DNA of 20,446 nucleotides, taken from positions 1 through 20,446 of IMG/VR virus record IMGVR_UViG_3300025133_003772, one strand, 5' to 3'. Source of the DNA: a virus. The notes below the pieces were generated by a model that was not told the origin of the DNA, did no database searches, and saw only the letters and a list, made by a program, of their open reading frames with translations. The position numbers and the translations under genes are program-made. Below are positions 2,418-20,446 of the stretch, piece by piece (within the stretch, counting starts at the first letter, position 1; each line of letters starts with the position of its first letter).

Positions 2418-3727
2418 TAAACAACTCCTTTATATAAAGCTATAGGTGCCATTGCGCCATGATTCTGAGCGACAAGATTAGCAAAATGCGTGTATCTACG
2501 TTGCGCAGCATTTAAATCTGATACATCTAATTGGTCTATATCTTGCTGGAACCACAATGTAGCTGCCACGTTATATAAATATCTAGCCTGTCTTTCATCT
2601 ATTTCCATAGTATCTGAACCAGACGATACAGAAGATAAATGCCCCATACCTCTTACAAGAATATTTCTATCACTTGTTGCGCCTTGTATTAAGGTTATGT
2701 CATCACCTTCTTCTCTCCATGTATTGATCCTTGCGCCAAGAAGCTGTGGTATATTTGCTGGTCCTGCTGTAACAATTAACTGGTCTGCGTAAAATACAAA
2801 GGCAGTACCACTTGTTGCAGATAGTCCAACCTTAATACTTGTACTAACTCCATCTGCTACTAAGGTATGTGTTAATCGTTCCCATCCATTACCTGAATGT
2901 GTGTCACTACTAGAAGATACACTTGCACTATCTAGTTGAATAGCAGCTGAAACTCTAGATGCAGTCTTAGAGTAAACCCATATTCCTATATTGATTTCTT
3001 CGCCAACATAGTTTGTTCCTGATGGAACTGTCATTAATATTGTTGCTGTACTACTTGCAGAGACAGTGCATTTTCCTGACTGAGAGCCTTCAAATACAAC
3101 CCAGTTATCTGGGGTAGTTGTGTCTGCTTCAGCAGCCAATGTAATATTTGAGGTTGTCCAATCATCTCCTATGGTAGAACTTTCAAAGTCACAGTTAAGT
3201 GTATTTACAATATTATTTGCAAAAGTTTTTGCTTCAAGTCTGTTCTCTACATATAGTTGCCTTACAAAGTTATAAGGTATGCTAGATGGTCTAGGGTATC
3301 TTAAAATATCATCTGCTCCAGTTAAAGCTCTATCCAATACTTCTTTGTATAGTCGTGGAAATGATTGCAACCTTGCATCATTTAAAGTATCTCTTAGTTG
3401 GTCAGGATCATATCTGTAAAGCTCAAAAGTAGCGTTTGTACTACTATCATTGGTCAAATCAGTACCTGATATAGTAATTGTGCCAGAACTTGCTGTATAG
3501 TCCGTTACACGCCTTACAGTGTCATCATTGTTAGCACTTGTAATTTTAATAAAGGTGTCATTTAGTGCATCATCATTAGTAAAGCCAGAGTCTTTAAGTT
3601 CTGTAGAAATTACTACAGTTAATGATCCTGTTGCACCAATAGCAGTTGTAGTAGTAAATGAACCTATAAAGGCACCAATAGTTCTGCCGAATGCTGGAAG
3701 CATAGTATTTAATGTAGTTGTTGCCAT
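2417..3727 (-). CDS. Connector/tail protein with an inserted carbohydrate-binding-like domain
   Basis: 436 residues; the start overlaps the upstream stop by one base (TAATG). A beta-rich N-terminus (1 to 105) leads into a helical segment (108 to 175), then a jelly-roll-like module at about 178 to 321 opening with CDFESSTIGDDW and ending VFYADQLIVTAG. A second helical part follows (375 to 425, with aromatic-rich LYNVAATLWFQQDI). Helices on both sides of a beta insertion suggest an adaptor or tail-tube-adjacent protein into which a sugar-binding-like module has been inserted. The module shares TTSNxTLA with the next gene's module, so the two are probably related. The position between small capsid-type genes and the large tail protein fits a head-to-tail connector or tail component. 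The role is inferred; the virion location is likely but not shown by sequence alone. Confidence 0.75.
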   Translation of the reverse strand: MATTTLNTMLPAFGRTIGAFIGSFTTTTAIGATGSLTVVISTELKDSGFTNDDALNDTFIKITSANNDDTVRRVTDYTASSGTITISGTDLTNDSSTNATFELYRYDPDQLRDTLNDARLQSFPRLYKEVLDRALTGADDILRYPRPSSIPYNFVRQLYVENRLEAKTFANNIVNTLNCDFESSTIGDDWTTSNITLAAEADTTTPDNWVVFEGSQSGKCTVSASSTATILMTVPSGTNYVGEEINIGIWVYSKTASRVSAAIQLDSASVSSSSDTHSGNGWERLTHTLVADGVSTSIKVGLSATSGTAFVFYADQLIVTAGPANIPQLLGARINTWREEGDDITLIQGATSDRNILVRGMGHLSSVSSGSDTMEIDERQARYLYNVAATLWFQQDIDQLDVSDLNAAQRRYTHFANLVAQNHGAMAPIALYKGVV

Positions 3728-4191
3728 TATAAAGGTACCTCTGTTGTTTTGCCTGTTTGAACATCAACTCTGATTTTAAGCGGTCTACTTAAACCGTTCT
3801 TGTCTGTTTTCATAAACAGGAACTCTTGAGCAATAACTTGCCCTGTTGCGGGGTCTTGTATATTAAAACTTTGAATTACTGGCATTCTTCCTTGCATCTT
3901 TGCATACGCCATTTTAAGTTCGTTTTCTTCTACAGTTGAACCAGTATCTTCTGACCTATGTTTTCTTACTTCTTCATAAGCCTTTTGTCCTGCCTTAGTA
4001 TCGTCAGAGTGTTTGGTTGCTAAATCACCTGCCATTTGGGCGTGCGACTCTACATCACCATATCCAATCTTACCCTCTGGAATTACCATTTTCATCTTCT
4101 TGCCTTTTTTAGTGACAGTATGTTCTGAAACTGATATCTCAGGTTCTTCTTTAAATATGTTGTTTACGTTGGCTTTAGTATATTTACCCAT
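3727..4191 (-). CDS. Unknown phage protein, 154 residues
   Basis: I do not recognise a family. The N-terminal half is charged and probably helical (VTKKGKKMKMVIPEGK, then an Asp/Lys/Glu-rich helix around residues 50 to 95). The C-terminal third is beta-like and ends in short strands (QEFLFMKTDKNG, LKIRVDVQTGKTTEVPL). No signal peptide or membrane segment is visible. The start is preceded by only a weak purine run (TAGGC), and the gene begins eight bases after its neighbour's stop. The end overlaps the next ATG by one base. Its place in the late operon, between two small virion-type genes and the connector-like gene, suggests an accessory head or joining protein, which is inference. Confidence 0.7.
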   Translation of the reverse strand: MGKYTKANVNNIFKEEPEISVSEHTVTKKGKKMKMVIPEGKIGYGDVESHAQMAGDLATKHSDDTKAGQKAYEEVRKHRSEDTGSTVEENELKMAYAKMQGRMPVIQSFNIQDPATGQVIAQEFLFMKTDKNGLSRPLKIRVDVQTGKTTEVPL

Positions 4192-4198
4192 AAGCCTA

Positions 4199-4504
4199 TT
4201 ACGCTGCTGTATTTATAATAACGCCATGTATGCCAGTGTTTGCAGTTCCGTAAGATACGTTAATAACTGCATCTGTGCTTGTAGCCTCAACCATTTTAAT
4301 ATTATTTAGTGTGTCGCTGCCGTATATAGTGAAAGCATCACCTGCGCTAACTAATACACCCACAGCAGTTGCTGGGTCTGTACCGTCTAGTCTGTACCTT
4401 ATTGCTGCTGTTTCAACTTTTACTTGTGCAAAGTTCACATCATTAGGTACTGTTAGTGACCTAACTGTAGCATCGACTGCTAATTTTTCATGTCCAAATG
4501 CCAT
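4199..4504 (-). CDS. Small beta-rich virion-type protein, 101 residues
   Basis: The start has a clear AAGGAG site six bases upstream, which overlaps the stop of the 32-residue gene before it. The protein is nearly all beta strand. Its centre, AIRYRLDGTDPATAVGVLVS followed by AGDAFTIYG and a later VINVSYG, matches a pattern I associate with small phage proteins encoded near capsid genes: a short beta sandwich around RyrlDGtdPtatvG. These are usually left as hypothetical or called head-associated or decoration proteins. There is no membrane segment. Downstream of the major capsid gene, a decoration or head-completion role is plausible, but the sequence does not decide between them. Confidence 0.75.
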   Translation of the reverse strand: MAFGHEKLAVDATVRSLTVPNDVNFAQVKVETAAIRYRLDGTDPATAVGVLVSAGDAFTIYGSDTLNNIKMVEATSTDAVINVSYGTANTGIHGVIINTAA

Positions 4505-4512
4505 GTTTCTCC

Positions 4513-4611
4513 TTATTCAGATTTTTCAGTAGTTTCTTCTACTTTTTTTTCTTCTTTTTTCTTAGAAGATTTTTTCTTAGGTTCTTCTTTTTCAAACGTA
4601 AATTCTGCCAT
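4513..4611 (-). CDS. 32-residue Lys/Glu-rich microprotein
   Basis: A short frame fills the gap between the 114- and 101-residue genes: MAEFTFEKEEPKKKSSKKK, then further Glu/Lys, ending TTEKSE and TAA. It has a good ribosome site (AGGAG, five bases before ATG), and its stop lies against the AAGGAG site of the next gene, so it sits where a translated gene should be. Nearly every residue after position 6 is charged or small, so it should be disordered or a lone charged helix. No function is recognised. It could be a small virion accessory or scaffold-like peptide, or a translated leader that couples the next gene. The A/G-rich base run could produce such a frame by chance, but the ribosome site and spacing argue for translation. 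Confidence 0.6.
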   Translation of the reverse strand: MAEFTFEKEEPKKKSSKKKEEKKVEETTEKSE

Positions 4612-4624
4612 ATTGCTCCTATTC

Positions 4625-4646
4625 TGGGGGAGCCGAAGCTCCCCCA
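4625..4646 (-). promoter_or_regulatory. UUCG tetraloop hairpin between two late genes
   Basis: A perfect 9-base-pair stem (TGGGGGAGC with GCTCCCCCA) closes a four-base loop. On the leftward transcript the loop reads C(UUCG)G, the well-known extra-stable tetraloop. It lies after the 114-residue gene's stop and 14 bases before the 32-residue gene's ATG. No T-run follows on either strand, so it is not a standard intrinsic terminator. An RNA end-protecting or processing hairpin, or an attenuator that lowers expression of the genes downstream, is more likely. Confidence 0.8.
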
Positions 4647-4663
4647 ATATAAACTAATTAATT

Positions 4664-5008
4664 TTAGTTAAGTCCAGATGTTGAAGACACCCATTGTCCT
4701 CCAACGAATCTAAACCATCCACCAGCGTTCTGGTCAAGAACACCGATAGCATTGTCAGAGTTGTTTCCATCTCTGACGGTTATCCCTTCGTCTGCATCAG
4801 CCTCGTTTTGTATGTATACTTCAGCGAAACCAGTTGTTACACCAGTCTCAGAACTATCAACAAAAACAAGGTCCAAATTTCTAGCACTACCACCTGGATC
4901 AACAACTTGTAACTTATCACTAGCTGCAGTGATAGTTAAATCAGCGTTTCCAGACATGGTAGTAGTAGTAGAGTTAACACTTTCGTATTGTCTAGTACCT
5001 ACAGTCAT
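4664..5008 (-). CDS. Beta-rich small virion-type protein, 114 residues
   Basis: The start is backed by a GGAG site that overlaps the preceding gene's stop region. The protein is beta-rich and polar, with a Ser/Thr-rich N-terminus (QYESVNSTTTTMSGNADLTI), a central VVDPGGSARNLDLVFVDS, and a C-terminal GWFRFVGGQWVSSTSGLN. Such short repetitive beta proteins next to a capsid gene are often head fibres, decoration or spike-like proteins, and the GGWFRFVGGQW ending suggests a surface-exposed fold. I do not recognise a specific family. The stable UUCG hairpin directly after this gene could raise its mRNA level relative to genes downstream. Confidence 0.7.
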   Translation of the reverse strand: MTVGTRQYESVNSTTTTMSGNADLTITAASDKLQVVDPGGSARNLDLVFVDSSETGVTTGFAEVYIQNEADADEGITVRDGNNSDNAIGVLDQNAGGWFRFVGGQWVSSTSGLN

Positions 5009-5012
5009 TGTT

Positions 5013-5396
5013 TTATTCTCCTATTTTAGGTAGTTTTATTTTTTCAGGTTTATTTGGTTTCTCCGTTTCCATCTTGGGGAGCTGCTCTTTTGATTGCGAT
5101 CTCTGAGGTGCTTCAACCTTTGCAGGGAGCTTCATCAGTCCGCCTTTCTCAAGATACCCAACGATGCTTTCTGGAAACATTCGGGCTTTGGTTTTGTCCA
5201 TCCTAACAACTTCACCGTTAAGTGATTTTGCAGGCAGGTATATGTAAGCCATAGTAGGATCATCAGACCACTCAGGTTCAGGAAGATCAGTAAGTTTATT
5301 ATCCTCAAGATGTTTCTCAAGAATAACATTCCACCTATTCTCAAACTTAAGTTCTTTTACAATGGTTTCCCATCGTTCTGTTAATTCAGTAGTCAT
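5013..5396 (-). CDS. Unknown protein with charged C-terminal tail, 127 residues
   Basis: The ATG overlaps the upstream gene's stop in an ATGA junction, a sign of coupled translation. The N-terminal half is probably helical and acidic (ERWETIVKELKFENRWNVIL). The middle has DDPTMAYIYLPAKSL and a Lys/Arg-rich segment with ESIVGYLEKGGLMKLPAK. The last 35 residues are low-complexity Lys/Pro/Gln/Glu (QRSQSKEQLPKMETEKPNKP), likely disordered. No known domain is visible. It forms a coupled pair with the 107-residue gene just after the capsid gene, so a head-completion, connector or capsid-associated role is possible but unproven. Confidence 0.65.
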   Translation of the reverse strand: MTTELTERWETIVKELKFENRWNVILEKHLEDNKLTDLPEPEWSDDPTMAYIYLPAKSLNGEVVRMDKTKARMFPESIVGYLEKGGLMKLPAKVEAPQRSQSKEQLPKMETEKPNKPEKIKLPKIGE

Positions 5397-5716
5397 TTCT
5401 TTCTACCTCTCCTACCTCGTCTTCGTTTCCCAGCTTTAACTTGACTGATAGGAGCAACCCTTTCAGTCTTGCTGGAAGACGGAGAACCAATAATTTCTTG
5501 TTTAGTTTTGACGAATGCTGGTATGTATTCGCCAGAGAAGACTAATTCTTTACCCTCCAACTTGGACTCCCTTTTTATCTTTGATAAATAATGACCAACC
5601 CTATCCGATTTTACTCGGAAAGGATCGCCACTTGTTGCATCATAGATAGTTGTATACAAGTGATCTTCATTGCTGTCGATCATCTTTGTAAAGTAATCCT
5701 GTTGTTGAGTAGTCAT
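5393..5716 (-). CDS. Unknown protein with strongly basic tail, 107 residues
   Basis: It follows the major capsid gene with a GGAG ribosome site ahead of the ATG and overlaps the next gene by four bases (ATGA). Residues 1 to 75 are a mixed alpha/beta segment (YTTIYDATSGDPFRVKSDRV, KLEGKELVFSGEYIPAFVK). The last 15 residues are a dense Lys/Arg tail (AGKRRRGRRGRKK) expected to bind nucleic acid or an acidic partner. The family is not recognised. Immediately downstream of the capsid gene, it could be a head-interior, DNA-contacting protein or a capsid accessory. That is inference from position and charge. Confidence 0.7.
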   Translation of the reverse strand: MTTQQQDYFTKMIDSNEDHLYTTIYDATSGDPFRVKSDRVGHYLSKIKRESKLEGKELVFSGEYIPAFVKTKQEIIGSPSSSKTERVAPISQVKAGKRRRGRRGRKK

Positions 5717-5724
5717 CTAATCTC

Positions 5725-6624
5725 CTACAGTGCGTCTGATGCACCGAGCATTTCAACACCCCAAGGATCAGCTACTTCAGCTTCTCCCCATTCACCAACC
5801 ATAACCATCTCAGTACCTCTTAATGAAGCATCTCTTTCTTCTTCAGCTTCCATTTCATGAGCCATAGCCAAAGCTAAAGCCTGTGGAACGAAAATTGCAC
5901 CCTTAGAGTCACCAGAACCATCTCTTGTCAATACACCTGATTGGAATATTGGAACACCAAATGCTTTCTCATTTCCTCTAAAGTAGTTTTGTACCACTTC
6001 GGCAGTTATACCTTCTGGAATTGGCTGTGCAGCCATACCAGTTGATCCACCACCTTGGATACCAGTTACTTCTTGTACGAACGCCCTGATCTGCTCTGGG
6101 TGGAATACACCACTAGCAGTTCCTGGAGCCATACCATAAGAAGCGTTGTTATCAGTTTTTAAGTAAGACACAGCTCCTGCAACGTGGTAGTAAGTAAGGA
6201 AACTTCCTGCTGATCCGATTGAGTTTGAAAACCCATCGAACAGAGTTGTAAGATCACTTTCTAGTAATCTTCCTAAAGCTCCACCTTGTACTTCTCCAAC
6301 GTGCGAAAGTATGTCTTCGTTATTTTGTCTAGCTAATCTATCAGAAACAAAAGTCATGATACCGTGTTCAGAAGCAGTAATGCTAGAAACAGTAACTGAA
6401 AGTTGTTGCGGAACAGCGATATCTATACCTTCTGTAAGTGCAGCAGCATCGTTTCTACCCCATACTGGAATGTTAACTTGCTTTGCGCCTTGAGGAATAT
6501 CATATCTTGCTACCAACTGGTTTGTAGGACCAGCAGGCTCTATGTTTGCTATTGCTGAAGCAATAACAATATTAGACATATCTGACAGCGATGAGCTTGA
6601 CGATAATGTCAATCCACTTGCCAT
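5725..6624 (-). CDS. Major capsid protein (HK97-fold type, likely)
   Basis: 299 residues, about the usual size for a compact HK97-fold coat protein without a large delta domain. It has a strong AGGAG ribosome site and lies directly after the scaffold gene, the classic arrangement. The N-terminus is Ser-rich. ARYDIPQGAKQVNIPVWG and ALTEGIDIAVPQQLSVTVSS read like the N-arm and E-loop of coat proteins. TASEHGIMTFVSDRLARQNN and GALGRLLESDLTTLFDGFS match the spine helix region, and AKGAIFVPQ-like text (SKGAIFVPQALALAMAHEME) the late P-domain strand. It should assemble the icosahedral head with the scaffold and portal. No cleavage site is evident. Confidence comes from position plus the overall pattern. 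Confidence 0.87.
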   Translation of the reverse strand: MASGLTLSSSSSLSDMSNIVIASAIANIEPAGPTNQLVARYDIPQGAKQVNIPVWGRNDAAALTEGIDIAVPQQLSVTVSSITASEHGIMTFVSDRLARQNNEDILSHVGEVQGGALGRLLESDLTTLFDGFSNSIGSAGSFLTYYHVAGAVSYLKTDNNASYGMAPGTASGVFHPEQIRAFVQEVTGIQGGGSTGMAAQPIPEGITAEVVQNYFRGNEKAFGVPIFQSGVLTRDGSGDSKGAIFVPQALALAMAHEMEAEEERDASLRGTEMVMVGEWGEAEVADPWGVEMLGASDAL

Positions 6625-6643
6625 TGTATTTATCTCCTAATTT

Positions 6644-7447
6644 TTAAAGGCTCGAAAAGCCTTTATTCTTAATTTCTTTTTTTGCTGCACGATACTGTGT
6701 AGCATCAATTTGACCACTAGCCATCATTTGAGATAAATCAGAAATAGTTGTAACCCTAGATCCAGGACCTTTTGGCGCACCAGAAGTAGTAGGTGGCACC
6801 GTTGGCGCAGGCGTTTCCTGAGCTGGTTCAGAAGCTGGAGCAGATTGTTTAGGTGTTTTTAAACCTTGAATGTTTCTATTTGCCAGTGAAACTAATTCAC
6901 CTGGTGTCATATTTGCATTCCAACCTTGCCATATTCTTTCATCAAACTCAGTTATATCAAGATTATTATCTTTGATTAACTGTTTAGTAGTGTCAGCTAA
7001 TATCCTCTGCGCTTCAGTAGGTCCCTCTACCTTTTCGGGTTCAGGAACTTCGGCAGTTTTATTTTGCTGTAACTTACTTTTATAGTATTCAACCTGCTGT
7101 TCAGGATCAAGTTGTTCTACTTGCGCCTGTTCAACTTTTTCAGTCCAATCAATCACAGGTTTTAACTGTTGATTTATCATATCTTGTAACTCTTTTTGCG
7201 AATTTGCAGTATGATTTGCAAACTTTCCTTGGAAAGAATTTAATGCTTTTTCCGCAGCATCGGCTGCGGCTTTAGCAGTTACTTCTGCAATTTTATCCGC
7301 TGAGAGAGTTTCAGGTTCTGATGTCTTTTCTTCCTCTGGTTGCCCTTGAGCTTCCACTGGTGTCTTTGCAGCATCATTAATTTTTTCAGCTATTTGCTGT
7401 TCTGCCGTAACAGTTTCTTCTGAAGCCTTAACTTCGTTATCATCCAT
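6644..7447 (-). CDS. Capsid scaffold protein
   Basis: 267 residues with the hallmarks of an internal scaffold: an acidic, disordered N-terminus rich in Glu, Ala and Gln; a long helical, coiled-coil-prone centre (DKIAEVTAKAAADAAEKALN, KELQDMINQQLKP, QVEYYKSKLQQNK); a Pro/Ala/Thr linker (APASEPAQETPAPTVPPTT); and a small basic C-terminal helix (YRAAKKEIKNKGFSSL) of the kind that contacts coat protein. It stands directly upstream of the major capsid gene, 19 bases apart, as scaffolds usually do. There is no protease motif, so it is probably not a scaffold-protease fusion. Its stop codon lies inside a hairpin (6645 to 6665). Confidence 0.85.
   Translation of the reverse strand: MDDNEVKASEETVTAEQQIAEKINDAAKTPVEAQGQPEEEKTSEPETLSADKIAEVTAKAAADAAEKALNSFQGKFANHTANSQKELQDMINQQLKPVIDWTEKVEQAQVEQLDPEQQVEYYKSKLQQNKTAEVPEPEKVEGPTEAQRILADTTKQLIKDNNLDITEFDERIWQGWNANMTPGELVSLANRNIQGLKTPKQSAPASEPAQETPAPTVPPTTSGAPKGPGSRVTTISDLSQMMASGQIDATQYRAAKKEIKNKGFSSL
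6645..6665 (-). promoter_or_regulatory. Hairpin over the scaffold stop codon
   Basis: An 8-base-pair stem (TAAAGGCT with AGCCTTTA) and a five-base loop cover the last codons and stop of the scaffold gene, just before the capsid gene's ribosome site. There is no T-run on the leftward strand, so it is not a terminator. It may create a processed 5' end for capsid mRNA or tune expression of capsid relative to scaffold. It may also be chance in AT-rich DNA. Confidence 0.45.
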
Positions 7448-7507
7448 AGTTGCCTTAACTCCTATTTCTATTTACGCAATACTATGCGCTTTTTAACAAG
7501 ATAACAT

Positions 7508-10500
7508 TTACGGGTTAGTAAAGTCAACAGGTCCTGTATCGTAATTTGAAAGCTCAATAGGTTGCGACCGCAACCAGAAATATTCTTCACCAATATTATT
7601 GGGGTGTTTTAATTTTCCAGCGTAACCCCATCTAAACAAGAAAGCATCTAAGCCAGGATTGCCTTCTCTAAGATATTTTTTAGTGGCACTTATCTTATTA
7701 TTTATTTCTTTAAGATCAGGGTTTTCTGCTAAAATTAATTGTTCTGTGCTAGTAGCTCGTATATATTCTGTTCTTAGTTTCTGTGCGTATTCTGGGAATG
7801 GCATATCTTCTATAACTGCTTGTTCAGACGCATCCCAATAAAACTGATACTTATTTCTAGCATTGTAATATTCTGAAATTATTGGTGGCAAATTCTGACC
7901 TATCTTTAGCCTTTCCTCTACGTATGCAAATATGTCTGATCCCCATTTAACTTTAAAATCTTCTATTGCTTCATCTCTAGCCAACCAGTCATATCCGCCT
8001 GGCTTATCCCAATTTTCATTACTAATGATATCTGTTAAGAAAGCTCTGTATGCCACATCCTCTGGTTGTGTATCATCTGAAAACTTCTGAGCCATTTGTG
8101 TAAAGTATGTATTTACATCTTCAAGGTCTTTACCTTCTTCTGTTCTTTTATTTAGAATGTCATAAGCTATTCTTTTATTATTATTAGCAGTCTTTAAAAT
8201 CACTGATCTTAGTTCTCTTGTCGTAAAGAATTGTTCTTCTTGCATTAGAGATATACCTTCTCTTAATTCATTATCATACTCTTGTTGTATTACTTCTTGT
8301 TGGTCGTAATATACTTCAAGTTGATCCATTACTTTATTGTCGCCTTCAGCAACAACCTTCTTTACATCTTCGTTAAGCCTAGTAAGGTTTTCTGATTCAG
8401 CTTCTAGATTTTTCTTTTGAACTTGGTTTAACTCTTTCCATTGCTTACCATGTTTTTCCCATGCAAGCTCATCTCTAAAGTCCATTCTTCTTTCCCATAT
8501 AGATAAAGGTCTTACTCTCATACCTCCCATTTCAAAAGGCGCTCCAGTAAGTTTTTCGCTCGTATTATTATAAGCATCATCAAGTAACGCTCCTTCAATC
8601 GAAAATGGTAGTGGTGCCTTACCTATATGCTTTAACAGATCTATGTTAGATTCAAATGGTCTACCCAAGTAATCTTTACCAGTCCATATCTCATAACCTA
8701 AGCCAGTAATAGGAGAAGTCCTGCCTCTTAGATATTGGAATATAGGATTATTCTGTTGTTCTTCTAATATATCTTCATCAGTCAACATATTGTCACCCAG
8801 TTTAGTTGCAGCTCTAGCGAAGCTCATCCAAAAAGAACCAAGACCGATTCTATTTCCGTTTATTTCAACTGTCATAAATTTACTTGATCGCGGATCTAAT
8901 TCTGGTTCCTGACCTAGAGCTAGCGAAGAAGCAATGTAAGTACCCATACCAAATCCAGCTAACCCTAATAAAGATTTTCTAGCTTCTGCTCCCTGTACTC
9001 CACCTCTAAACGCATCTGCCATTAATGAAAAGCTAGCTCTTGTATATCTTGGTGAGAAAAATACGAATGCTCTTTCTACTGCAGACTGACTTCTTGGGAT
9101 ACCAGCTGCTATAGGATCTAATGCACCTGTTGCTTTATTCAAGAAAGAAGTTAATCCTTGTAATGCTTCTGCTTTATTATCAGCATTTCTATATACAGAA
9201 TTACGCAAATATTGGTAACCTTTAATTTTTAATACATCCCCAGAGTGTATAAAGGATCTTTCAAATCTATCTAATAATCCACTCACTTTCTTACCTACAA
9301 CAGGCGCTTTATCTAGTAACCTTTGCGCAGTAGGTACACCAGCATATACATCTGTAGCATACTTAGATAGTTGTCCACCGTTTAATACATACTCATCTAA
9401 GAGTTTAATAGTATTACCAGCTTCATCTAATACTGTTATTTCTGATAACTCTTTAATAAATCTTTCTGTAGACTCTTTAGAAAAAAATGCCTCGAACCCA
9501 TTTGTTGTTGCTTTACCCCACACTTTAAATAAAGACGGATTAACTACAGCTCTGCCTAGCATAGGCAATCCTTGAAGCAACATAAAACCAAAGTCAAAAC
9601 CAGTCTTACCTACTCTTATAACATCACCTATAGCACCTGCCGATTTAGCTAATGCTGTAAATTGCGTATCATCTGCTAGCCCAGTCATTGATCTCCATCT
9701 GGCTGCCGTTTTTTCTGCATTCTTTCCTGTAAAGAAGAATTGATTAAACTTAGCTGGCAATCCTGATTGCCCTTCTTTAGCAAATACTCTTGAACCATTT
9801 GAAGCAAAATCTGCATCTAAATTTTTCTTAGCTAATAATATTTTTTCAAAATCTGTGGGGTTTTCTTTTGCTATCTTAGCTAAATACCCATAGCCATTTT
9901 TATCTAATGCAGCAATATCTGCTTGGCTAATAACTTTTTTTCCAGCTCGTCTTCCAAGCCTGCCTGACTTATCCGCTGCTTGCTCCACACCTTTTGCTGC
10001 TTTTGATAAAATAACATTAACCTTATTCATGGCACCTATTTCATTCGTAGTACTCGCTTTCCATTTAACATCTCCAATATTTTTGGCTGCAAGTCCTTGG
10101 ATATCTGTTTGCATTTTTGAGTTATTCATATATCTCATAGCATTTTCGCCATATATTTGGAATGCTTCATCAGGATCACTTATGTATTTAATTCTTTTGT
10201 TGACAATCGCATCTATCATTTCGTCTTCTAGTTCCTCTGTGAATGTTCTCTTTCCAAGTTCACCTGGTGGAGTTAATCGCTTACCCCCACCTTTTGCAAC
10301 TATATCGTTAGCATTTTCTATTATTTTTAAAACTTTACTTGCTACGAAACCACCCTTGATTAAATCAATACCTGGGCTATATTTAACTAAGTCATTACCG
10401 TATGATTCAAAACCTTGTAAAAATTTACCTGCGGCTCTTAGCTGGTCATCTGTTAAATTTGCATTTAAAAGTTTTTCGCCTTTAAATTTAAAGTTTCTAA

Positions 10501-11554
10501 TTGTATCGAGACCTTTTTTTGTAGCCAATAAATCTAGCCATCTAGTTTCACCTACACCTGGCTCCAATACAAATTGAATCCCCCCACCTTTTGTTGTTAA
10601 TTGTTGTTTAACTTTTTTTGTTGTCATAAATCGTGCTAAATCATCAAAAGTGTTTAAGTTAGGCTGATTAGTTGGAATATTAAAAAGAGTTCCTAGCCCT
10701 CTAGAAAAATGCCTACCATTTAAAAATTCGTCTGGGTGTTCTATCAATCCATCTTCAGTAATTTTAAATGCTTGTTTAACTCCTGTTACCTTTGCAGTAT
10801 TAGCCGTTGCAACACCAGAAATCTTACTTTCGATATCTAGGTTTTTTAAGAGTATTCTGTTTGCTGGTATATGAGGGTCAAGTAATCCTGCCTTCCCTTT
10901 AGCAATTCCAAATGCCCATTTCAAAGGACCTGCATGTCTTGCAATTTTATTTGTTCTGCTTTTTTCTAATATTTTAAGTGGGGCATCGCTAGATTTAATT
11001 ATTTCCTCAAACCCTATCATTCCCAAAGGCCTAGGCTCTGGACCAACTGTTTTACCTGCTGCCTTTAAAGCGTCTTTACCTTTAAATGCAACCTTAGCTC
11101 CTTTTGCGGCTAAACCAAATGGAATGTATGTAAGAGGATCAGCTACTATTTCAAGTGGTAGCGATGCATATAATGGCAAATCTTTTTCAAGATACGCTTT
11201 ACGAGACGATTTTAGGAAGTCTCCCAAATCATCTTCTGGTGTAGCATCTTGTATTTCCCTTCTTCTTTTACGTGAATCACTATCAAATGCTTGGAATGCA
11301 AGACCTGCGCCTACCTCACCAGGGTATGCAAGTTTTTTAGCTGTTTTCATAAGACCTGCACCAACTTTTGACCAATACGAAGGATTGCCTAGAGGACCTT
11401 CTGGTGTATTAAGCTGGCTAGCTTGAGCAACTAGATTGCTGTCTGCTGGCTCAATCTTTTCTTCTTCTTGATTAGCAATGGTCATTGCTTCATCAGCTAG
11501 TCTTCTATTTCGTCTAGCTTTAACTAATCTCATAAGCTCTGGGTTAATTGGCAT
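7508..11554 (-). CDS. Giant putative internal/ejection virion protein, 1348 residues
   Basis: The ATG overlaps the previous stop by one base (TAATG). The N-terminus is Arg/Lys/Glu-rich. Around residues 120 to 160 it carries a hydrophobic amphipathic stretch (LPLYASLPLEIVADPLTYIP) followed by Ala/Gly/Lys. Further hydrophobic, Gly-rich segments lie near residues 650 to 675 (FGFMLLQGLPMLGRAVV) and 860 to 885 (LLGLAGFGMGTYIASSLALG), preceded by ERAFVFFSPRYTRASFSLMA. The C-terminal 350 residues are charged and helical. A very long helical protein with several membrane-active-looking segments is what one expects of proteins ejected at infection to carry DNA across the envelope. No lysozyme or other enzyme motif is apparent. 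The position between portal and scaffold is unusual. The function is inferred. Confidence 0.75.
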   Translation of the reverse strand: MPINPELMRLVKARRNRRLADEAMTIANQEEEKIEPADSNLVAQASQLNTPEGPLGNPSYWSKVGAGLMKTAKKLAYPGEVGAGLAFQAFDSDSRKRRREIQDATPEDDLGDFLKSSRKAYLEKDLPLYASLPLEIVADPLTYIPFGLAAKGAKVAFKGKDALKAAGKTVGPEPRPLGMIGFEEIIKSSDAPLKILEKSRTNKIARHAGPLKWAFGIAKGKAGLLDPHIPANRILLKNLDIESKISGVATANTAKVTGVKQAFKITEDGLIEHPDEFLNGRHFSRGLGTLFNIPTNQPNLNTFDDLARFMTTKKVKQQLTTKGGGIQFVLEPGVGETRWLDLLATKKGLDTIRNFKFKGEKLLNANLTDDQLRAAGKFLQGFESYGNDLVKYSPGIDLIKGGFVASKVLKIIENANDIVAKGGGKRLTPPGELGKRTFTEELEDEMIDAIVNKRIKYISDPDEAFQIYGENAMRYMNNSKMQTDIQGLAAKNIGDVKWKASTTNEIGAMNKVNVILSKAAKGVEQAADKSGRLGRRAGKKVISQADIAALDKNGYGYLAKIAKENPTDFEKILLAKKNLDADFASNGSRVFAKEGQSGLPAKFNQFFFTGKNAEKTAARWRSMTGLADDTQFTALAKSAGAIGDVIRVGKTGFDFGFMLLQGLPMLGRAVVNPSLFKVWGKATTNGFEAFFSKESTERFIKELSEITVLDEAGNTIKLLDEYVLNGGQLSKYATDVYAGVPTAQRLLDKAPVVGKKVSGLLDRFERSFIHSGDVLKIKGYQYLRNSVYRNADNKAEALQGLTSFLNKATGALDPIAAGIPRSQSAVERAFVFFSPRYTRASFSLMADAFRGGVQGAEARKSLLGLAGFGMGTYIASSLALGQEPELDPRSSKFMTVEINGNRIGLGSFWMSFARAATKLGDNMLTDEDILEEQQNNPIFQYLRGRTSPITGLGYEIWTGKDYLGRPFESNIDLLKHIGKAPLPFSIEGALLDDAYNNTSEKLTGAPFEMGGMRVRPLSIWERRMDFRDELAWEKHGKQWKELNQVQKKNLEAESENLTRLNEDVKKVVAEGDNKVMDQLEVYYDQQEVIQQEYDNELREGISLMQEEQFFTTRELRSVILKTANNNKRIAYDILNKRTEEGKDLEDVNTYFTQMAQKFSDDTQPEDVAYRAFLTDIISNENWDKPGGYDWLARDEAIEDFKVKWGSDIFAYVEERLKIGQNLPPIISEYYNARNKYQFYWDASEQAVIEDMPFPEYAQKLRTEYIRATSTEQLILAENPDLKEINNKISATKKYLREGNPGLDAFLFRWGYAGKLKHPNNIGEEYFWLRSQPIELSNYDTGPVDFTNP

Positions 11555-14520
11555 TATGACCTACCCAAAACTGATGATGTGCCTCCAACTCCGTATAGTG
11601 CTTGTCTTTGACCTAATGGAGTAAAGTCTAATAAATCTTCTTGTACTTCTTCTGGTGTCTTTCCAAATACTGCTGCTGATCCAAGTGCTTGCTGCTGTTG
11701 TATAGGTGTAAGCTGATTAAATCCAGCTTCACTTAAATTAGGATTATATTCTTGAATTAATGGCAAACCTGTTGTCATACCTGTTGCAGGATTTACCACA
11801 GCATTCCCACTAAATGGCACAGCGTTATCTCTTGTAATTGGGACACCATCTGCATAACCAATTATATTTGTAGGATCTAGGTTAACATTTGGCACAGTTT
11901 CCTGTGGCAGTATACCTGAATCTCCAGATTGTCCTGGTGGCAAAGGAGTACCTGCCTGAGCTTGCGCTCCTGTTCCTGCGCCTAATAATGGTGATGTAGG
12001 ATATGCTGGAATACCTGGAACAGATTGTTCAGTTCTTCTAAGTTCCTGTTGTAATTGCAATAATGGTCCACCACCAGCTTGCACAATAGCAGCTAACTGT
12101 GTTGGGTTCTGATATATATTAGATATTTGATTTAAGATTGCAGATCTTCTTTGATTCTGCGCATCTAAAGCACCATATCTAGATGCAACCAAATCAGGCA
12201 AGTTCTGTGATTGTATCCTAAGAAGTTCTTGTTGGTTCTGATTATTTAATAATTCTTCAGGATTTAAACCTCTTTGGAATACTTCCTCACCTTTTTCATC
12301 TTGAGTATAATAACCACCAAGCAATCCACCAGATTGTCTTAGTGCTTCTTGCGTAAGTTCTTGTTTACCTAATGGTGTTAGTTCCTGAACAAGTTTTGAA
12401 AGACCATCTGCGCCTTGTTTAAGTTGTGCAGTTAATCTTCCACCTGAGCTGGCTACATTTCTCAAACCTACTTCTAGGTTTTCATATTCTTCTGATGATA
12501 ATGTTGATGCTGGTCCTAATAAGCCACCAGAAGCATTAATCTGAGATTGTATAATTCTATCAATAGATTCTTGTGAACCTGTAATTTGCTTAATCTTATT
12601 GCCATATAATTCTAGAGTAGCACTTATAGCAGGATTAGTTTCAAACCTTCTTTTAGTTTCTACTTGTCTTATAGGTGGATCGCCTTCACGTTCACCTGGA
12701 ACTATAGTTACAACTTCTTCAACAACCTCAACAAATAGATTTGATGGATCTAAGAAATCAACAGGAAATCCTGGCAGTACAGTCAATCTGTCTAGTAGCA
12801 TCTGGTCGCCTTTTGAGTCTCTTGGAATAGCAAAGCCTTCTGCCCCCAAGAAATCAGATAAAGCATCACCTGGATAATTAATTACAGGATTAACGGAAAT
12901 AATATTTCCACCTATTCCTGTATCTGTTGTAGTTTGATCTAATGTTTGTCCTAGACCTCCTGGACCTCCTGGAAGCTGTTCTCCTGTTGCATAATCAAAT
13001 GAAGGATCAAATGTTCCTAATCCTCCTCCTCCAGCATCTTCTCCACCACCTGCACCAGCTGCTGGATCTTCAGTAATCGTTGGATCTTCAGTAATCTTTG
13101 GATCTGGACCTTCTGGTGATCCTTTTGTTGGTGGAGGACCTCCTGTCGCAGTAGGATCAAACTCTCCTGATCTAAAGTCATATATAATTCTTTTATCTCT
13201 AGGCCCATCAATATTTGTTGTAGGAGTTATTGATCTACCATTAGCGTTAAGTACAGACTCAAACCAATCAGGAACATCAACTTCTACAGAAGTTGCATCT
13301 CTCATCCATGCTTCTTCTAGTTCATCTTTCATGGCTCCCTCTTTAACCTGAAAGAATAAAATATCATTAGGATCTAAAGTTAATACGCCTTTATTAGCGT
13401 TCCATGCTTCTTCAGTAATAGGCAGTTCAAATTGTTCTGCATCTTGAAGATTATCTGCACCATCAGCATTTACTATAAACCATGCACTTGATGTTTCAGT
13501 TTTACCTGTTCTTTTTTTGTTTTTATCTATAAAATATTGAGTATATTCATACTGTCTTAATAATGTTCCATCTGGAGATGTCTTACTATCTACTAATTTT
13601 CGTACCCAATCACCACCACCTGAAACCTTGTCTACAATAGGATCTTTTACAGGATTATTATTACTTAAATAACCAGCTTTTTCTTTTTCTATTCTTTCTT
13701 CTTCTAGTCTTTTAGCTTCTGCTTCTCTTTCCATTCTTTCTATTCTTGCTATTCTTTCTTCTTCAGCTTGTTTCGCAGCAGCGCTCTCAAAGCCTTGTAT
13801 AGATCCACCACTTTCATCAGTCATAAAATCGAATTGCCCTCCAGTAAGAGTCAAAGGAGTTCTTCCAGGTCTAGTATCTATTGTGTCAGGTCTTGAAAAT
13901 TCAGGATTCCATGCATAAGGGTCAGGTGCTGTACCTGCGCCAGAAGCTAATGGATTAGTTGGATCATAAGTATTAGCAGGTCCTCCAGGACTCATTCCTT
14001 GAGTAAACCCACCTGTTGCTAATGCTGCATCTATATTAAATGGAGTGTTTCCAGCAGATGTTGTTCCTCTGCTGTCAGCCATTCCAGGTGTTCCTGCTCC
14101 ATAACCTGTATTAACATCTCCGTAAAATGTTTGACCATTTGCTCCTTCGGAACTCGCCAACTGCATAGTAGGTGCAACTGCTGGTGGCAAATTAGTTCCA
14201 GATTGAAGCAAAGGAGATGTTCCTCCTTCTAGCATAGTTGGAAAATTAGGATTACTTAGATTTATAGTTCTTCCGCCTACATTAGTTGTTCCTGATTTTT
14301 TGTCAAAATTATTTTGAACTTCTGGAACATACCTATCCAATCCTTTGCCAGCATCTGGTAAAGTTATTTGGATAGCACCACTTTCAGAAAGTTCATCGTT
14401 TATTATTCTTTGAGCATCAGCTTCAAGTTGTAGGTAAGTCCTGCCTTGTCTATCTTGAACTTCTACTTGCTGTTCATAAGGCCTTCCGTCTTCACCTATT
14501 ATGTAATATCTAAATATCAT
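11554..14520 (-). CDS. Giant low-complexity virion-type protein, 988 residues
   Basis: I recognise no family. The first 60 residues look folded (FRYYIIGEDGRPYEQQVEVQ, LQLEADAQRIINDELSES). Residues about 70 to 240 are Gly/Pro/Asn/Thr-rich and likely disordered. About 245 to 285 is a charged coiled-coil-like helix (AKQAEEERIARIERMEREAE). About 290 to 450 is again folded in appearance with many aromatics. A Gly/Pro/Asp-rich stretch follows, including a duplicated ITEDP from an 18-base near-repeat around 13065 to 13105, then a Gln-rich C-terminal part (NNQNQQELLRIQSQN). It starts two bases after the 60-residue gene with no clear ribosome site, so coupled translation is likely. Its tight link to the 1348-residue gene suggests both act in the virion, perhaps inside the head or at the portal. 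The role is unproven. Confidence 0.72.
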   Translation of the reverse strand: MIFRYYIIGEDGRPYEQQVEVQDRQGRTYLQLEADAQRIINDELSESGAIQITLPDAGKGLDRYVPEVQNNFDKKSGTTNVGGRTINLSNPNFPTMLEGGTSPLLQSGTNLPPAVAPTMQLASSEGANGQTFYGDVNTGYGAGTPGMADSRGTTSAGNTPFNIDAALATGGFTQGMSPGGPANTYDPTNPLASGAGTAPDPYAWNPEFSRPDTIDTRPGRTPLTLTGGQFDFMTDESGGSIQGFESAAAKQAEEERIARIERMEREAEAKRLEEERIEKEKAGYLSNNNPVKDPIVDKVSGGGDWVRKLVDSKTSPDGTLLRQYEYTQYFIDKNKKRTGKTETSSAWFIVNADGADNLQDAEQFELPITEEAWNANKGVLTLDPNDILFFQVKEGAMKDELEEAWMRDATSVEVDVPDWFESVLNANGRSITPTTNIDGPRDKRIIYDFRSGEFDPTATGGPPPTKGSPEGPDPKITEDPTITEDPAAGAGGGEDAGGGGLGTFDPSFDYATGEQLPGGPGGLGQTLDQTTTDTGIGGNIISVNPVINYPGDALSDFLGAEGFAIPRDSKGDQMLLDRLTVLPGFPVDFLDPSNLFVEVVEEVVTIVPGEREGDPPIRQVETKRRFETNPAISATLELYGNKIKQITGSQESIDRIIQSQINASGGLLGPASTLSSEEYENLEVGLRNVASSGGRLTAQLKQGADGLSKLVQELTPLGKQELTQEALRQSGGLLGGYYTQDEKGEEVFQRGLNPEELLNNQNQQELLRIQSQNLPDLVASRYGALDAQNQRRSAILNQISNIYQNPTQLAAIVQAGGGPLLQLQQELRRTEQSVPGIPAYPTSPLLGAGTGAQAQAGTPLPPGQSGDSGILPQETVPNVNLDPTNIIGYADGVPITRDNAVPFSGNAVVNPATGMTTGLPLIQEYNPNLSEAGFNQLTPIQQQQALGSAAVFGKTPEEVQEDLLDFTPLGQRQALYGVGGTSSVLGRS

Positions 14521-16640: not shown

Positions 16641-18137
16641 TTATCCTTGTTCAGCTAATTCTTTTCTCATCTGTCTCCAGCGAATTAGCCTACCACCCTT
16701 TTCTTTATAATTTTTATTGATGGGTTTTATGCCACTTTTTGACTGAGGCATTTTAAATTGATCTCCTGTTTCAACAGCAGGATCACATGCCATTAATGCT
16801 AAACATTCAGCATCAACCCAGTCATCATTCGCACCAGATACAGTGTAGAAAGAATGTCCTCTATTAGACGTTTCCCTATGAGCAATGTCTTCTAACTGAC
16901 TTATTAGTTTAACCCAACTCTGTGGAAATGCAACAGTCTCTTTTTCTAATGAGATTGCGTAATCTAAAAACAGTTGGTACTTTTTTCCAGGAGTAAAGTT
17001 ATATCCAATGACAGGAATAGATTGCTCCATAAGCTCTCGATATAAAACGTCTTCACCAAATTTACCACCAAGTCCTGTAGAGTCCATATATACTTCTTCT
17101 ACTTTCCATTTTTCTGCGGCTGACTTAATTGTTTCTACCTGTAAAGACCAATCTGTTTTGATTAATTCTATCTGTGCAACAGAATGTCTAGATACTCTAT
17201 CTTTAATTATCATAACTGTAGGATCATTAGTTCTACCTAAGTCAAGACCTGCAACATAGTGTCTACCATCTTCTGGTCCCACCATTTCAAATGTGCCTTT
17301 AGAGTATGCTGCTGTTATATTCCTGAAGAAATTACCTGCGCCTTCAGGTTGCTTTGCCATATAAAACCGATCCCAGATGCCCTCAGTAAGTGCTGCTTTT
17401 TCTTCTTGTATTTCTAATCTGTCATCTTCTGTAAGGTAGGGGTTGTCAAAAGTGGAAGCATGAAAGGCTTGTCGCCTATCAGAAGGGTTTTCTTTTGCTA
17501 TCTTGTAGTTCCTAGCAAACCAATGCTGGGTACTATCAGGGGGTACACCCTCAACAATCGCCCTACCCAATCTTCCAGGTGAGTTAAGTGTAGGCCTTAC
17601 CTTATTCCAGGCTGCCTCTTTAATATCCTGGCTTTCCGCCATGTGTAGAAAATCTAATCCTACAGTTTGTAGACCTTCTGGATTATCTGCTGACTTAAGT
17701 TCCCAAAATACTGATTGTCTCCATCTATTAGGTAGCCACTGCCCATTCTCATCTTTTAAGTCTAGCCATACATGCAAGTCATCTTGTTTAAATCCACCAC
17801 CACGTCCGCCACCTTGTGCTTTGGTTCTTGTCTTACGTACTATGTGCTTGGGTATAAAGGCTTGCATTTCGTTCCATACCTGCATCATTTGCGCACGTGT
17901 AGGAGCTACTGTCCATATATGAATAGGGGGTATAAGACCTGCTTGTTCAGCAGTTAACTTTTCTTTTTTACCTGGGAACTGTACTGGCTGAATACTTGCC
18001 TGTCTAATTACGTGTAATACTTCCTGTAAAGCAGATCGAGTTTTACCAGCTCGTCTTCCTGCCTGTACAAATTTAATTTTAGCTTTTGATTCGTGCATTT
18101 CCTTTTGCCAAGGATATGCTTCATAAAAGTTTGCCAT
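16641..18137 (-). CDS. terL: Terminase large subunit (packaging ATPase and nuclease)
   Basis: 498 residues, a typical length. The N-terminal ATPase domain has Walker A at 27 to 33 (GRRAGKT) and a Walker B-like VGLDFLHMAE ending at Glu168. The C-terminal RNase H-like nuclease shows the expected acidic triad: Asp299 in VAGLDLGRTNDP, Asp352 in VYMDSTGLGG, and Asp438/439 with Asp442 in ANDDWVDAE. It pumps DNA through the portal and cuts concatemers. The first 17 bases overlap the end of the small zinc-knuckle gene. The ribosome site is weak (AGAG in an A-run), so translation may depend on coupling to that gene. All key residues are present and nothing looks broken. Confidence 0.96.
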   Translation of the reverse strand: MANFYEAYPWQKEMHESKAKIKFVQAGRRAGKTRSALQEVLHVIRQASIQPVQFPGKKEKLTAEQAGLIPPIHIWTVAPTRAQMMQVWNEMQAFIPKHIVRKTRTKAQGGGRGGGFKQDDLHVWLDLKDENGQWLPNRWRQSVFWELKSADNPEGLQTVGLDFLHMAESQDIKEAAWNKVRPTLNSPGRLGRAIVEGVPPDSTQHWFARNYKIAKENPSDRRQAFHASTFDNPYLTEDDRLEIQEEKAALTEGIWDRFYMAKQPEGAGNFFRNITAAYSKGTFEMVGPEDGRHYVAGLDLGRTNDPTVMIIKDRVSRHSVAQIELIKTDWSLQVETIKSAAEKWKVEEVYMDSTGLGGKFGEDVLYRELMEQSIPVIGYNFTPGKKYQLFLDYAISLEKETVAFPQSWVKLISQLEDIAHRETSNRGHSFYTVSGANDDWVDAECLALMACDPAVETGDQFKMPQSKSGIKPINKNYKEKGGRLIRWRQMRKELAEQG

Positions 18138-18246
18138 CTATTTTCTCTTTTTTTTTTCGTTTAATATAATAGTAGTGATGCTGTTTACATAAACCGTTTG
18201 CCCATAGCCGTTGCTTACAACCTAGGTCTTGCCTGCCACATATCAT
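18121..18246 (-). CDS. 41-residue zinc-knuckle protein between the terminase genes
   Basis: This frame starts in an ATGA junction with the small terminase stop (ATG at 18246, TGA at 18243 to 18245) and ends 17 bases inside the large terminase gene, so it bridges the two. Its N-terminus holds Cys3, Cys10, Cys20 and His23/His24, in the order C-x6-C-x9-C-x2-H-H-Y, with the characteristic NGLCKQHHYYY. This matches the small phage zinc motif C..C.....GLCxxHYxR seen at the start of some HNH-type endonucleases and stand-alone microproteins. A Lys/Arg tail follows (IKRKKKEKIDGKLL). No HNH catalytic part is present. HNH proteins near terminase genes aid packaging in some phages; a DNA-binding or terminase cofactor role here is inference. 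It bridges two otherwise unlinked genes, which argues that it is real. Confidence 0.68.
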   Translation of the reverse strand: MICGRQDLGCKQRLWANGLCKQHHYYYIKRKKKEKIDGKLL

Positions 18247-18812
18247 GATAAGTCAGGCAGTCCATCTGCCGAAAAGTCAGCTTCTGGTGCAGGACCATTG
18301 TCTTGCACAATACCTGGCTGCTTTTGTCCTTCCATAAAATACTTAATCTCAGGTCTACTATTTATAGGCTCCATAAACTCTAAGTATCCTTGTGCCATCA
18401 TCTTCAGGGCGAAGTTCACGCCAGCACTTCCCTGTGCTTTTGCTTTTTCTAAGTGCATAAAACTAATTACAGCAGACTCATGCGCATATACAGTATCTAG
18501 ATGTGACTTCTTTATATAGGTCTTTTTAGAACTAGGGAATATAGGGTACTGACCAGTGTCACGATAGTCCTGTAGTCTCTTACTAAAGGACGGAGTCCTT
18601 TCGATTTTTTTTTCGACATCTTCCACACTCCACCCGAACTCATTACACATCTCTTGCAGTCCGTCTGTGCTAGAACCAAACACTGGTAACAAGATATATA
18701 CTTGTTTTAATTGCCTAGTCCACAACTTCCACTCAGGAATAGCCTTTAAAACCCTTCGTTCTATCTCGGATACCCCAGTGCTGCTTTTAGCTAACATATT
18801 GTTTAACGCCAT
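18243..18812 (-). CDS. terS: Terminase small subunit (putative)
   Basis: 189 residues, first gene of the leftward late block, just upstream of the large terminase; that is the standard place for the DNA-recognition subunit. A helix-rich N-terminal half includes DGLQEMCNEFGWSVEDVEKK followed by RTPSFSKRLQDYRDTGQYPI, which could be a helix-turn-helix-type DNA-binding segment. The middle (AVISFMHLEKAKAQGSAGVN) looks like an oligomerising helix and the acidic, Pro/Asp-rich tail (PAPEADFSADGLPDLS) could contact the large subunit. No family signature is certain, so the assignment rests mainly on position and size. The ribosome site is a strong GGAGGG only a few bases before ATG, with a leftward promoter at 18841 to 18869. 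Confidence 0.72.
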   Translation of the reverse strand: MALNNMLAKSSTGVSEIERRVLKAIPEWKLWTRQLKQVYILLPVFGSSTDGLQEMCNEFGWSVEDVEKKIERTPSFSKRLQDYRDTGQYPIFPSSKKTYIKKSHLDTVYAHESAVISFMHLEKAKAQGSAGVNFALKMMAQGYLEFMEPINSRPEIKYFMEGQKQPGIVQDNGPAPEADFSADGLPDLS

Positions 18813-19325: not shown

Positions 19326-19457
19326 AACATATTCACAACCTAAACAATGCACGAGAAAAACCGCAAAAATAGCTTGAAATTCTCCCTCATTTCTCTAGGC
19401 GTATTTTGCTTGTCCTACCTAGATTTTAAGTTCAAATGGCTATTTCTTTGCTCAATG

Positions 19458-19486
19458 TTGACAACCTTTGATTTAGGTGCAATAAT
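19458..19486 (+). promoter_or_regulatory. Near-consensus promoter for the rightward gene
   Basis: TTGACA (perfect -35, 19458 to 19463), exactly 17 bases, then AATAAT (five of six, 19481 to 19486). The start would fall near 19493, about 50 bases before the ATG at 19545. The spacer holds ACCT-N7-AGGT, an inverted repeat that a repressor could use to block the promoter. Confidence 0.75.
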
Positions 19487-19544
19487 GGTACTCATAACGG
19501 TTAGCTTTCCTCCGTTTAGGGAAGCAAGGTCAAAGGAGACCCAA

Positions 19545-20099
19545 ATGACTACATCAAACATAATCAATCCAACAATCCTAGATGCGATCAAGGCTAAATA
19601 CCTCGAAAGCTCAAGGAAAAAAGGTAACGAAAATCAGGCGTTACGATCAATCTTAGGTGCAAAGGGGATTGCAGTTGAAACTGAAGGTTCAAAATTGCAG
19701 GATAGGAAAACCTTAGTTTCCCTCATACCTGCAACTGAACTGAAGGACGTAGCAAAGCTATTCCAAGATGCTACAAACCAACCTGTTTTTGCCCAACTTG
19801 CTAAAGCAATTGAACCTGAAGTTAAGATTGTTGAGCCTGCAAAACCTAAAGCGCCTAAAGCTAAAGCGCCTAAAGCTAAGAAAGCTAAAATGCCTTTATT
19901 CGTAGAGGACGATTTCGACTTTACGAATGGGTTAGGTTCAAAGCAACCTACGCAAGCTGAATTAGTTGAGCAACCTACACAATCGGAGATTGATGAGGAA
20001 GCTACGCTTGAAGGCATGATTATTGAGCAACGCTTTGTGATGATTGAGACTAAGCTTGATAAGCTTGTAGAATTTTTGAAAGAGCAAGCTAAAAGCTAA
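19545..20099 (+). CDS. Unrecognised 184-residue protein, only strong rightward gene
   Basis: I chose the ATG at 19545 because AAGGAG lies seven to eight bases upstream and a near-consensus promoter sits just before it. A longer frame from 19347 would put that promoter inside the gene. Residues 1 to 90 look folded and helical (TILDAIKAKYLESSRKKGNE, LKDVAKLFQDATNQPVFAQL). Residues 95 to 115 are a Lys/Ala/Pro linker with a duplicated KAPKA, resembling histone-like or DNA-binding tails. Residues 117 to 155 are acidic (FVEDDFDF). The end is a coiled-coil-like helix (MIETKLDKLVEFLKEQAKS). It stands alone between a control region and a terminator, so a regulator or DNA-associated early protein is plausible. 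No family is recognised. Confidence 0.8.
   Translation: MTTSNIINPTILDAIKAKYLESSRKKGNENQALRSILGAKGIAVETEGSKLQDRKTLVSLIPATELKDVAKLFQDATNQPVFAQLAKAIEPEVKIVEPAKPKAPKAKAPKAKKAKMPLFVEDDFDFTNGLGSKQPTQAELVEQPTQSEIDEEATLEGMIIEQRFVMIETKLDKLVEFLKEQAKS
19848..19877 (+). repeat. 15-base tandem repeat coding KAPKA twice
   Basis: AAAGCGCCTAAAGCT occurs twice back to back in the linker of the 184-residue protein. It is a recent-looking in-frame duplication that lengthens the Lys/Ala/Pro linker by five residues. Confidence 0.85.
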
Positions 20100-20150: not shown

Positions 20151-20351
20151 GCCTTTTTTTAAGCTAATCCTCCCTAGGCTAATTTAGCCTTCCAAATTTT
20201 CCCCTAATTGCGCCTTCTAAAGCGCCTTAAACGTCCATATAAGCGTTTTTAGGTGCTTTGTGGTACTTTGATACCCTTTGATAAAAAAGTCTCCTCTAAG
20301 CGCTTTATTTTGCAATCCTGATTTTTGGATTGAAATTGAATTACATGCCTT
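20151..20351. other. Non-coding stretch with short repeats
   Basis: I see no convincing gene here. It contains a small hairpin (AGGCTA, three bases, TAGCCT at 20176 to 20190), two GCGCCTT words near 20209 and 20222, a direct pair CTTTGATA (20266 and 20276, 10 bases apart), the palindrome AAGCGCTT near 20298, and an AATCC/GGATT pairing around 20325. The words GCCT and AGGC recur, foreshadowing the tandem repeats that follow. Confidence 0.5.
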
Positions 20352-20407
20352 GCCTGTATGCCTGTACGCCTACATGCCTACATGCCTACATGCCTACATG
20401 CCTACAC
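20352..20407 (+). repeat. 8-base tandem repeat, seven units of GCCTACAT type
   Basis: Seven head-to-tail 8-base units: GCCTGTAT, GCCTGTAC, four identical GCCTACAT, then GCCTACAC. The outer units have diverged while the centre is uniform, as expected from slippage or unequal exchange. The period is not a multiple of three and no gene spans it. Confidence 0.93.
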
Positions 20408-20415
20408 GCTTGAGC

Positions 20416-20439
20416 GCCTGCCTGCCTGCCTGCCTGCCT
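20416..20439 (+). repeat. 4-base tandem repeat (GCCT)6
   Basis: Six perfect GCCT units directly after the 8-base array; GCCT is also the first half of the 8-base unit, so the two arrays are probably related. The array ends seven bases before the window edge. Confidence 0.92.
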
Positions 20440-20446
20440 GCACGCT

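Follow-up and report, generated by a model that had tools for sequence, protein, structure and literature searches.

The window, a 20,446-nucleotide stretch of DNA from a marine phage (IMG/VR record IMGVR_UViG_3300025133_003772), contains a 41-codon microgene on the minus strand at positions 18121–18246, between the large terminase gene (TerL) and a putative small terminase gene (TerS). Its translation is MICGRQDLGCKQRLWANGLCKQHHYYYIKRKKKEKIDGKLL. Judged from its translation, its homologues and the substitutions among them, this is a genuine protein gene under purifying selection, and its product adds a stand-alone member to a widespread kind of phage zinc knuckle, found here at an unusual place. 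We favor the view that it encodes an accessory microprotein, basic and with a Cys3His zinc knuckle, whose translation is coupled to that of its neighbors and which probably binds nucleic acid and is optional for the phage.

The microgene is tightly packed between its neighbors. Its start codon shares an ATGA stop/start junction, at bases 18243–18246, with the upstream 189-residue gene (18243–18812, minus strand), and its end overlaps the start of TerL (16641–18137, minus strand) by 17 bases (18121–18137). The same four-base overlap was found in all homologous loci. The overlap with the following gene varies in length, from 8 bases in L002 and L004 to about 35 in L082, where the next gene encodes an SSB; overlaps at both ends are present in all members. 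The deduced protein carries the motif C3-x6-C10-x9-C20-x2-H23-H24-Y. A sequence-only reading had proposed this hidden gene, and the frame and its position, the two overlaps and the motif are as it described; the gene is real, and automated annotation could miss it. An open frame of 41 codons alone is nothing unusual in the window, in which 97 ORFs of at least 35 residues were listed, and its six frames contain the loose motif C-x4..14-C-x9-C-x2-H once, with 0.19 expected. The microgene stands beyond chance because 12 other contigs carry the same frame at this junction, with invariant ligands and purifying selection acting in frame.

Scanning IMG/VR with the window TerL yielded 80 relatives, ten of which have a 41–47-codon ORF with the same motif and the same four-base junction between both genes. 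The contigs of L011 and L012, whose gene order is TerS, knuckle, SSB, TerL, came from a further scan that used the microprotein alignment. The family comprises 13 contigs in total, namely the window and 12 other IMG/VR contigs, and the ATGA junction is kept in all 12. A profile search of 25 whole records found the microgene in nine of them, as a single copy in each. No match to the 41- and 49-residue proteins was obtained by tblastn against 50,697 annotated phages, and screening 84,980 genomes of bacteria and archaea with the family alignment gave 24 pattern hits, none of them confirmed. The window protein had no match in Pfam or NCBIfam, and a PDB sequence search returned only QacR constructs, matched through a terminal His run at E-values no better than 2.6.

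Selection on the peptide was estimated by Nei–Gojobori counts on the part of the microgene outside the overlaps with TerS and TerL. The dN/dS ratio of close pairs was 0.06 (window and L082), 0.17 (L004 and L007) and 0.26 (L013 and L063); more distant pairs, in which synonymous sites are saturated, carry little information. In the pooled counts there were 24 synonymous differences over 51 sites against 27 nonsynonymous differences over 243 (Fisher p = 3e-8), and no comparable synonymous excess was seen in the remaining two frames. These values bear on the idea that the ORF serves only as a translational relay coupling TerS to TerL, the peptide itself being irrelevant. The overlaps kept at both ends in all members would fit such a relay, but the amino-acid sequence is under selection, and relatives lacking the ORF couple TerS directly to TerL, through a short overlap or across an 18-base gap, which makes this explanation very improbable.

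The four putative zinc ligands, Cys3 (codon at 18238–18240), Cys10 (18217–18219), Cys20 (18187–18189, within a GLC sequence) and His23 (18178–18180), all on the minus strand, are invariant in the nine aligned homologues, as is His24. The complete set of invariant positions in the nine members is M1, C3, C10, G18, L19, C20, H23, H24, Y26 and K29. Conservation of the ligands and of the ATGA junction, the check proposed by the sequence-only reading, is thus confirmed. The spacing C-x9-C-x2-H is fixed, and the loop between C3 and C10 has 6, 11 or 14 residues depending on the member. From the four invariant ligands we infer that the protein binds zinc. All members are net basic, with a pI of 9.7–10.2. 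In a low-confidence AlphaFold model of the 41-mer (pLDDT 67) a helix is predicted at residues 21–37, behind the knuckle, and the model had no match in the PDB; because of this weak model and the missing match, we make no structural claim.

Decay of an HNH endonuclease of the homing type, with loss of its nuclease part, could also have left such a knuckle. Phage HNH proteins often bear the knuckle unit, and homing-type HNH genes insert between essential genes. A remnant of this kind would hardly be expected to be clearly under purifying selection, to keep its ligands invariant and to overlap both neighbors cleanly across several divergent lineages, and no HNH residues are left downstream, where TerL or the SSB gene starts. 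The window protein shows neither the HNH catalytic motif nor a match to PF13392 or PF01844. We therefore give decay of this kind very little credence.

The identity of TerL is secure (Pfam Terminase_6C, 5.8e-06; phrog_2, 2.2e-30). The 189-residue upstream gene had no significant Pfam or PHROG match, a PDB sequence search gave no match of worth, and its AlphaFold model (pLDDT 63) no significant fold match; because of this, the label of small terminase refers only to its position and conserved pairing with TerL. Among its fold matches phBC6A51 (2ao9) appeared together with a viral relative, at non-significant E-values of 0.55–8.3. Elsewhere in the window, ten large or medium genes at 3–14520 (minus strand) had no PHROG match at E 0.01, TerL being the only one recognized among the genes scanned, which indicates a lineage poorly covered by databases. 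A 250-residue ORF on the opposite strand (19347–20099, plus) contains a Lys/Ala/Pro-rich repeat (KPKAPKAKAPKAKKAK) and has no Pfam match, and the record ends in short tandem repeats of the CCTACATG and CCTG types (20341–20446).

The microgene is optional among close relatives. It is absent from L001 and L003 (TerL 92% and 90% identical to that of the window), both of which are probably partial records, from L006 (84%) and from the outgroup L108, as well as from a sister clade with 75–76% TerL identity and from all more distant loci. A gene essential for packaging would be present wherever the terminase pair is, and these four relatives, L001, L003, L006 and L108, do not have it. Because both terminases are conserved in relatives lacking it, the microgene cannot be an essential packaging factor. 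The sequence-only reading had named ligands that vary freely, or a broken frame, beside conserved terminases as what would refute its proposal, and the outcome is divided: the ligands do not vary where the gene is present, but the terminases are conserved where it is missing.

On the TerL tree the presence and absence of the microgene requires four changes. The nearest relatives of the window are L001 and L003, both without it, and L006 adjoins the gene-bearing L004 and L005 with almost no branch length, its TerL being nearly identical to that of L004. Most of the gene content of the L006 record is common to two gene-bearing records, and a profile search of its 37,154 bases found no second copy of the microgene. 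A simple deletion from an L004-type locus was considered and is unsupported, the 18-base spacer in L006 being a different sequence. Near both ends of the L006 record (G004; 785–1537 and 36318–37052) lie diverged homologues of one gene, L182 and L183, each closest to a different relative. The knuckle subtypes defined by the loop of 6, 11 or 14 residues disagree with the TerL tree, and the knuckles nearest to that of the window are those of L011 and L012 (66% and 61% identity), though L002 is nearer by TerL. The distribution of subtypes suggests that the knuckle gene has been exchanged between lineages, although its length does not allow a tree to be built from it.

The place occupied by the microgene also accepts unrelated genes. 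In L011 and L012 an SSB gene (PF00436, 1.1e-35; L011 4623–4997) lies between the knuckle and TerL, and in L037 a C5-cytosine methyltransferase (3404–4225; PF00145, 2.2e-68) lies between TerS and TerL. In L018 (3538–3735) and L023 (1769–1966) the slot holds a 65-residue protein with two Cys pairs (CVLC and CFNC), which has no family match and relatives only in these two contigs. In L078 a Dam-type methyltransferase (187–678) directly precedes TerL; TerS is not visible there. The TerS–TerL junction is thus a cargo slot, and the proteins that it takes probably act on DNA.

The microgene could also be a small moron-type gene, involved in anti-defense, host takeover or transcription control, for which the junction would be a tolerated insertion slot and late expression a consequence of that alone. 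The four changes on the TerL tree, the discordant subtypes and the unrelated genes accepted by the slot (SSB, C5-methyltransferase and the 65-residue Cys-pair protein) all agree with this explanation. No named host-takeover protein was matched beyond a chance-level PHROG hit, and late expression beside the terminases would be odd for an early anti-defense protein. We regard a moron-type gene as a real but lesser possibility.

The distribution of HNH genes gives the best argument for a role in packaging. A match to HNH_3 was found in all six sister-clade records examined (L017, L018, L019, L020, L023 and L024), the only mapped case being a small gene just upstream of TerS (L018 2668–2922), and the knuckle-clade records examined have no HNH_3 gene. 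PF01844 is absent from all 25 records searched, and both PF13392 and PF01844 from the window record and the knuckle-clade records examined. Such a complementary pattern could mean that the knuckle replaces an HNH protein as a minimal packaging cofactor, binding TerL or TerS at the packaging site and aiding cleavage or the handling of DNA ends. The location of the microgene between two terminase genes, overlapping at both ends, agrees with this, and in the unrelated phage L149 a stand-alone knuckle immediately precedes a probable TerS–TerL pair. The HNH protein GP74 of HK97 stimulates cos cleavage (PMC9410871), which makes the packaging idea reasonable. The complementary pattern is weakened because L001, L003 and L006 carry neither gene: they keep both terminases with no knuckle and no detectable HNH gene in their records, and the TerL of L006 is nearly identical to that of the knuckle-bearing L004. 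Moreover, the motif differs from the zinc site of the terminase-linked HNH protein of GVE2, and knuckle genes in general lie mostly away from terminases. The minimal packaging or DNA-end factor proposed by the sequence-only reading is thus unsupported, and we consider such a cofactor unlikely. Even less probable is the more specific proposal that a nuclease-free knuckle of about 41 residues has become the minimal terminase accessory of one marine phage lineage, replacing the HNH packaging cofactor and being exchanged as a module. A packaging role is a possible, unproven minority option, and it cannot be an essential one.

The interpretation that we prefer, an accessory and optional nucleic-acid-binding microprotein, would work as follows. 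Cys3, Cys10, Cys20 and His23 would hold one zinc ion, with a Lys-rich helix behind the knuckle, according to the weak model. The overlaps suggest that ribosomes ending TerS reinitiate at the ATGA junction, make the microprotein and move on to TerL or whichever gene comes next; by this termination–reinitiation the microprotein would be made together with the terminase proteins. Such a small basic zinc unit is most likely best suited to bind nucleic acid or a protein bound to it, for example the terminase complex. The other cargo of the slot that acts on DNA, the SSB of L011 and L012 and the C5-methyltransferase of L037, counts in favor of nucleic acid; counting against it, Cys3His knuckles of this size can bind protein instead. 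Expression alongside the terminase genes would make the packaging complex, or late DNA in replication, its natural site of action. The microprotein may thus be an accessory DNA-handling factor, useful under some conditions and dispensable. The family illustrates that a very short phage gene overlapping its neighbors can be genuine, under selection and open to exchange. Should the protein prove to contact the terminase or the DNA being packaged, it would count as a very small accessory of packaging, and it would offer a simple way to learn what the widespread phage zinc knuckle does alone.

Among the closest known systems are HNH packaging cofactors. The genes of HK97 GP74 and GVE2 HNHE are, like the microgene, small and located beside terminase genes (PMC9410871, PMC5304195). 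The GVE2 protein, which has been studied structurally, coordinates zinc through Cys76, Cys79, Cys114 and Cys117, a [CxxC]2 arrangement within the nuclease fold (PMC5304195). The microgene product differs from both in having neither HNH residues nor the beta-beta-alpha metal fold, and in its ligands, which are of the form C-x6..14-C-x9-C-x2-H instead of the [CxxC]2 of GVE2.

A resemblance is also found with PHROG 5351. Three homologues matched phrog_5351, with E-values of 0.053, 0.0071 and 0.0048, weakly but repeatedly and always with an alignment starting at its position 53. The profile comparison with HNH zinc motifs suggested by the sequence-only reading thus yielded this link in three homologues, but no HNH match. 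A comparison set was assembled by searching phages with a DNA pattern coding for C-x9-GLC-x2-HY and reading the ORFs obtained. The unit C-x4-C-x9-GLC-x2-HY was found on HNH endonucleases and in small proteins standing alone, as tandem repeats, at the end of the L158 protein (DnaA-like by eye) and in large proteins whose start resembles a terminase (L140, L142 and L143). A phrog_5351 match occurs in 37 of 39 knuckle-bearing phage records, mostly at the knuckle unit; the 14 control genomes gave no match. An hhalign probability of 94.8 against the knuckle set was disregarded as circular, the set having been picked by the same motif. Since the unit is spread over many unrelated phage proteins, the "HNH endonuclease" label of PHROG 5351 seems to describe a frequent fusion partner, and the knuckle taken alone is no indication of a packaging HNH protein. 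Of the earlier claim that the microgene encodes the zinc motif of phage HNH proteins deprived of its nuclease, the related unit and the absent nuclease part stand; the unit is not specific to packaging HNH proteins. Pfam DUF5763 (PF19067) is touched by two of seven homologues, with a best, non-significant E-value of 0.076, and the window protein is unmatched.

Excluding motif copies inside terminase-like frames, a knuckle gene lies directly beside a terminase gene in two of the 42 motif records, L149 and L138; as TerL was detected in only 16 of the 42, we make no claim of enrichment beside terminases. In L149 the gene encodes a 68-residue protein (2597–2800, minus strand), and in L138, another unrelated phage, a knuckle–HNH–sigma-like fusion (2495–3343) overlaps the start of TerL. 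The stand-alone knuckles of L149 (68 residues), L155 (75), L132 (84) and L161 (126) are nuclease-free, like the microgene product; they are longer than 41 residues and have a C-x4-C loop, their sequence relation to it being seen in the motif only. Compared with PHROG 5351 proteins, whose unit has a first loop of four residues and ends in HY, the microgene family has loops of 6, 11 or 14 residues and HH(Y), and consists of a single unit in 41–49 residues with no fused nuclease, whereas the C-x9-GLC-x2-H spacing is identical and a basic tail follows.
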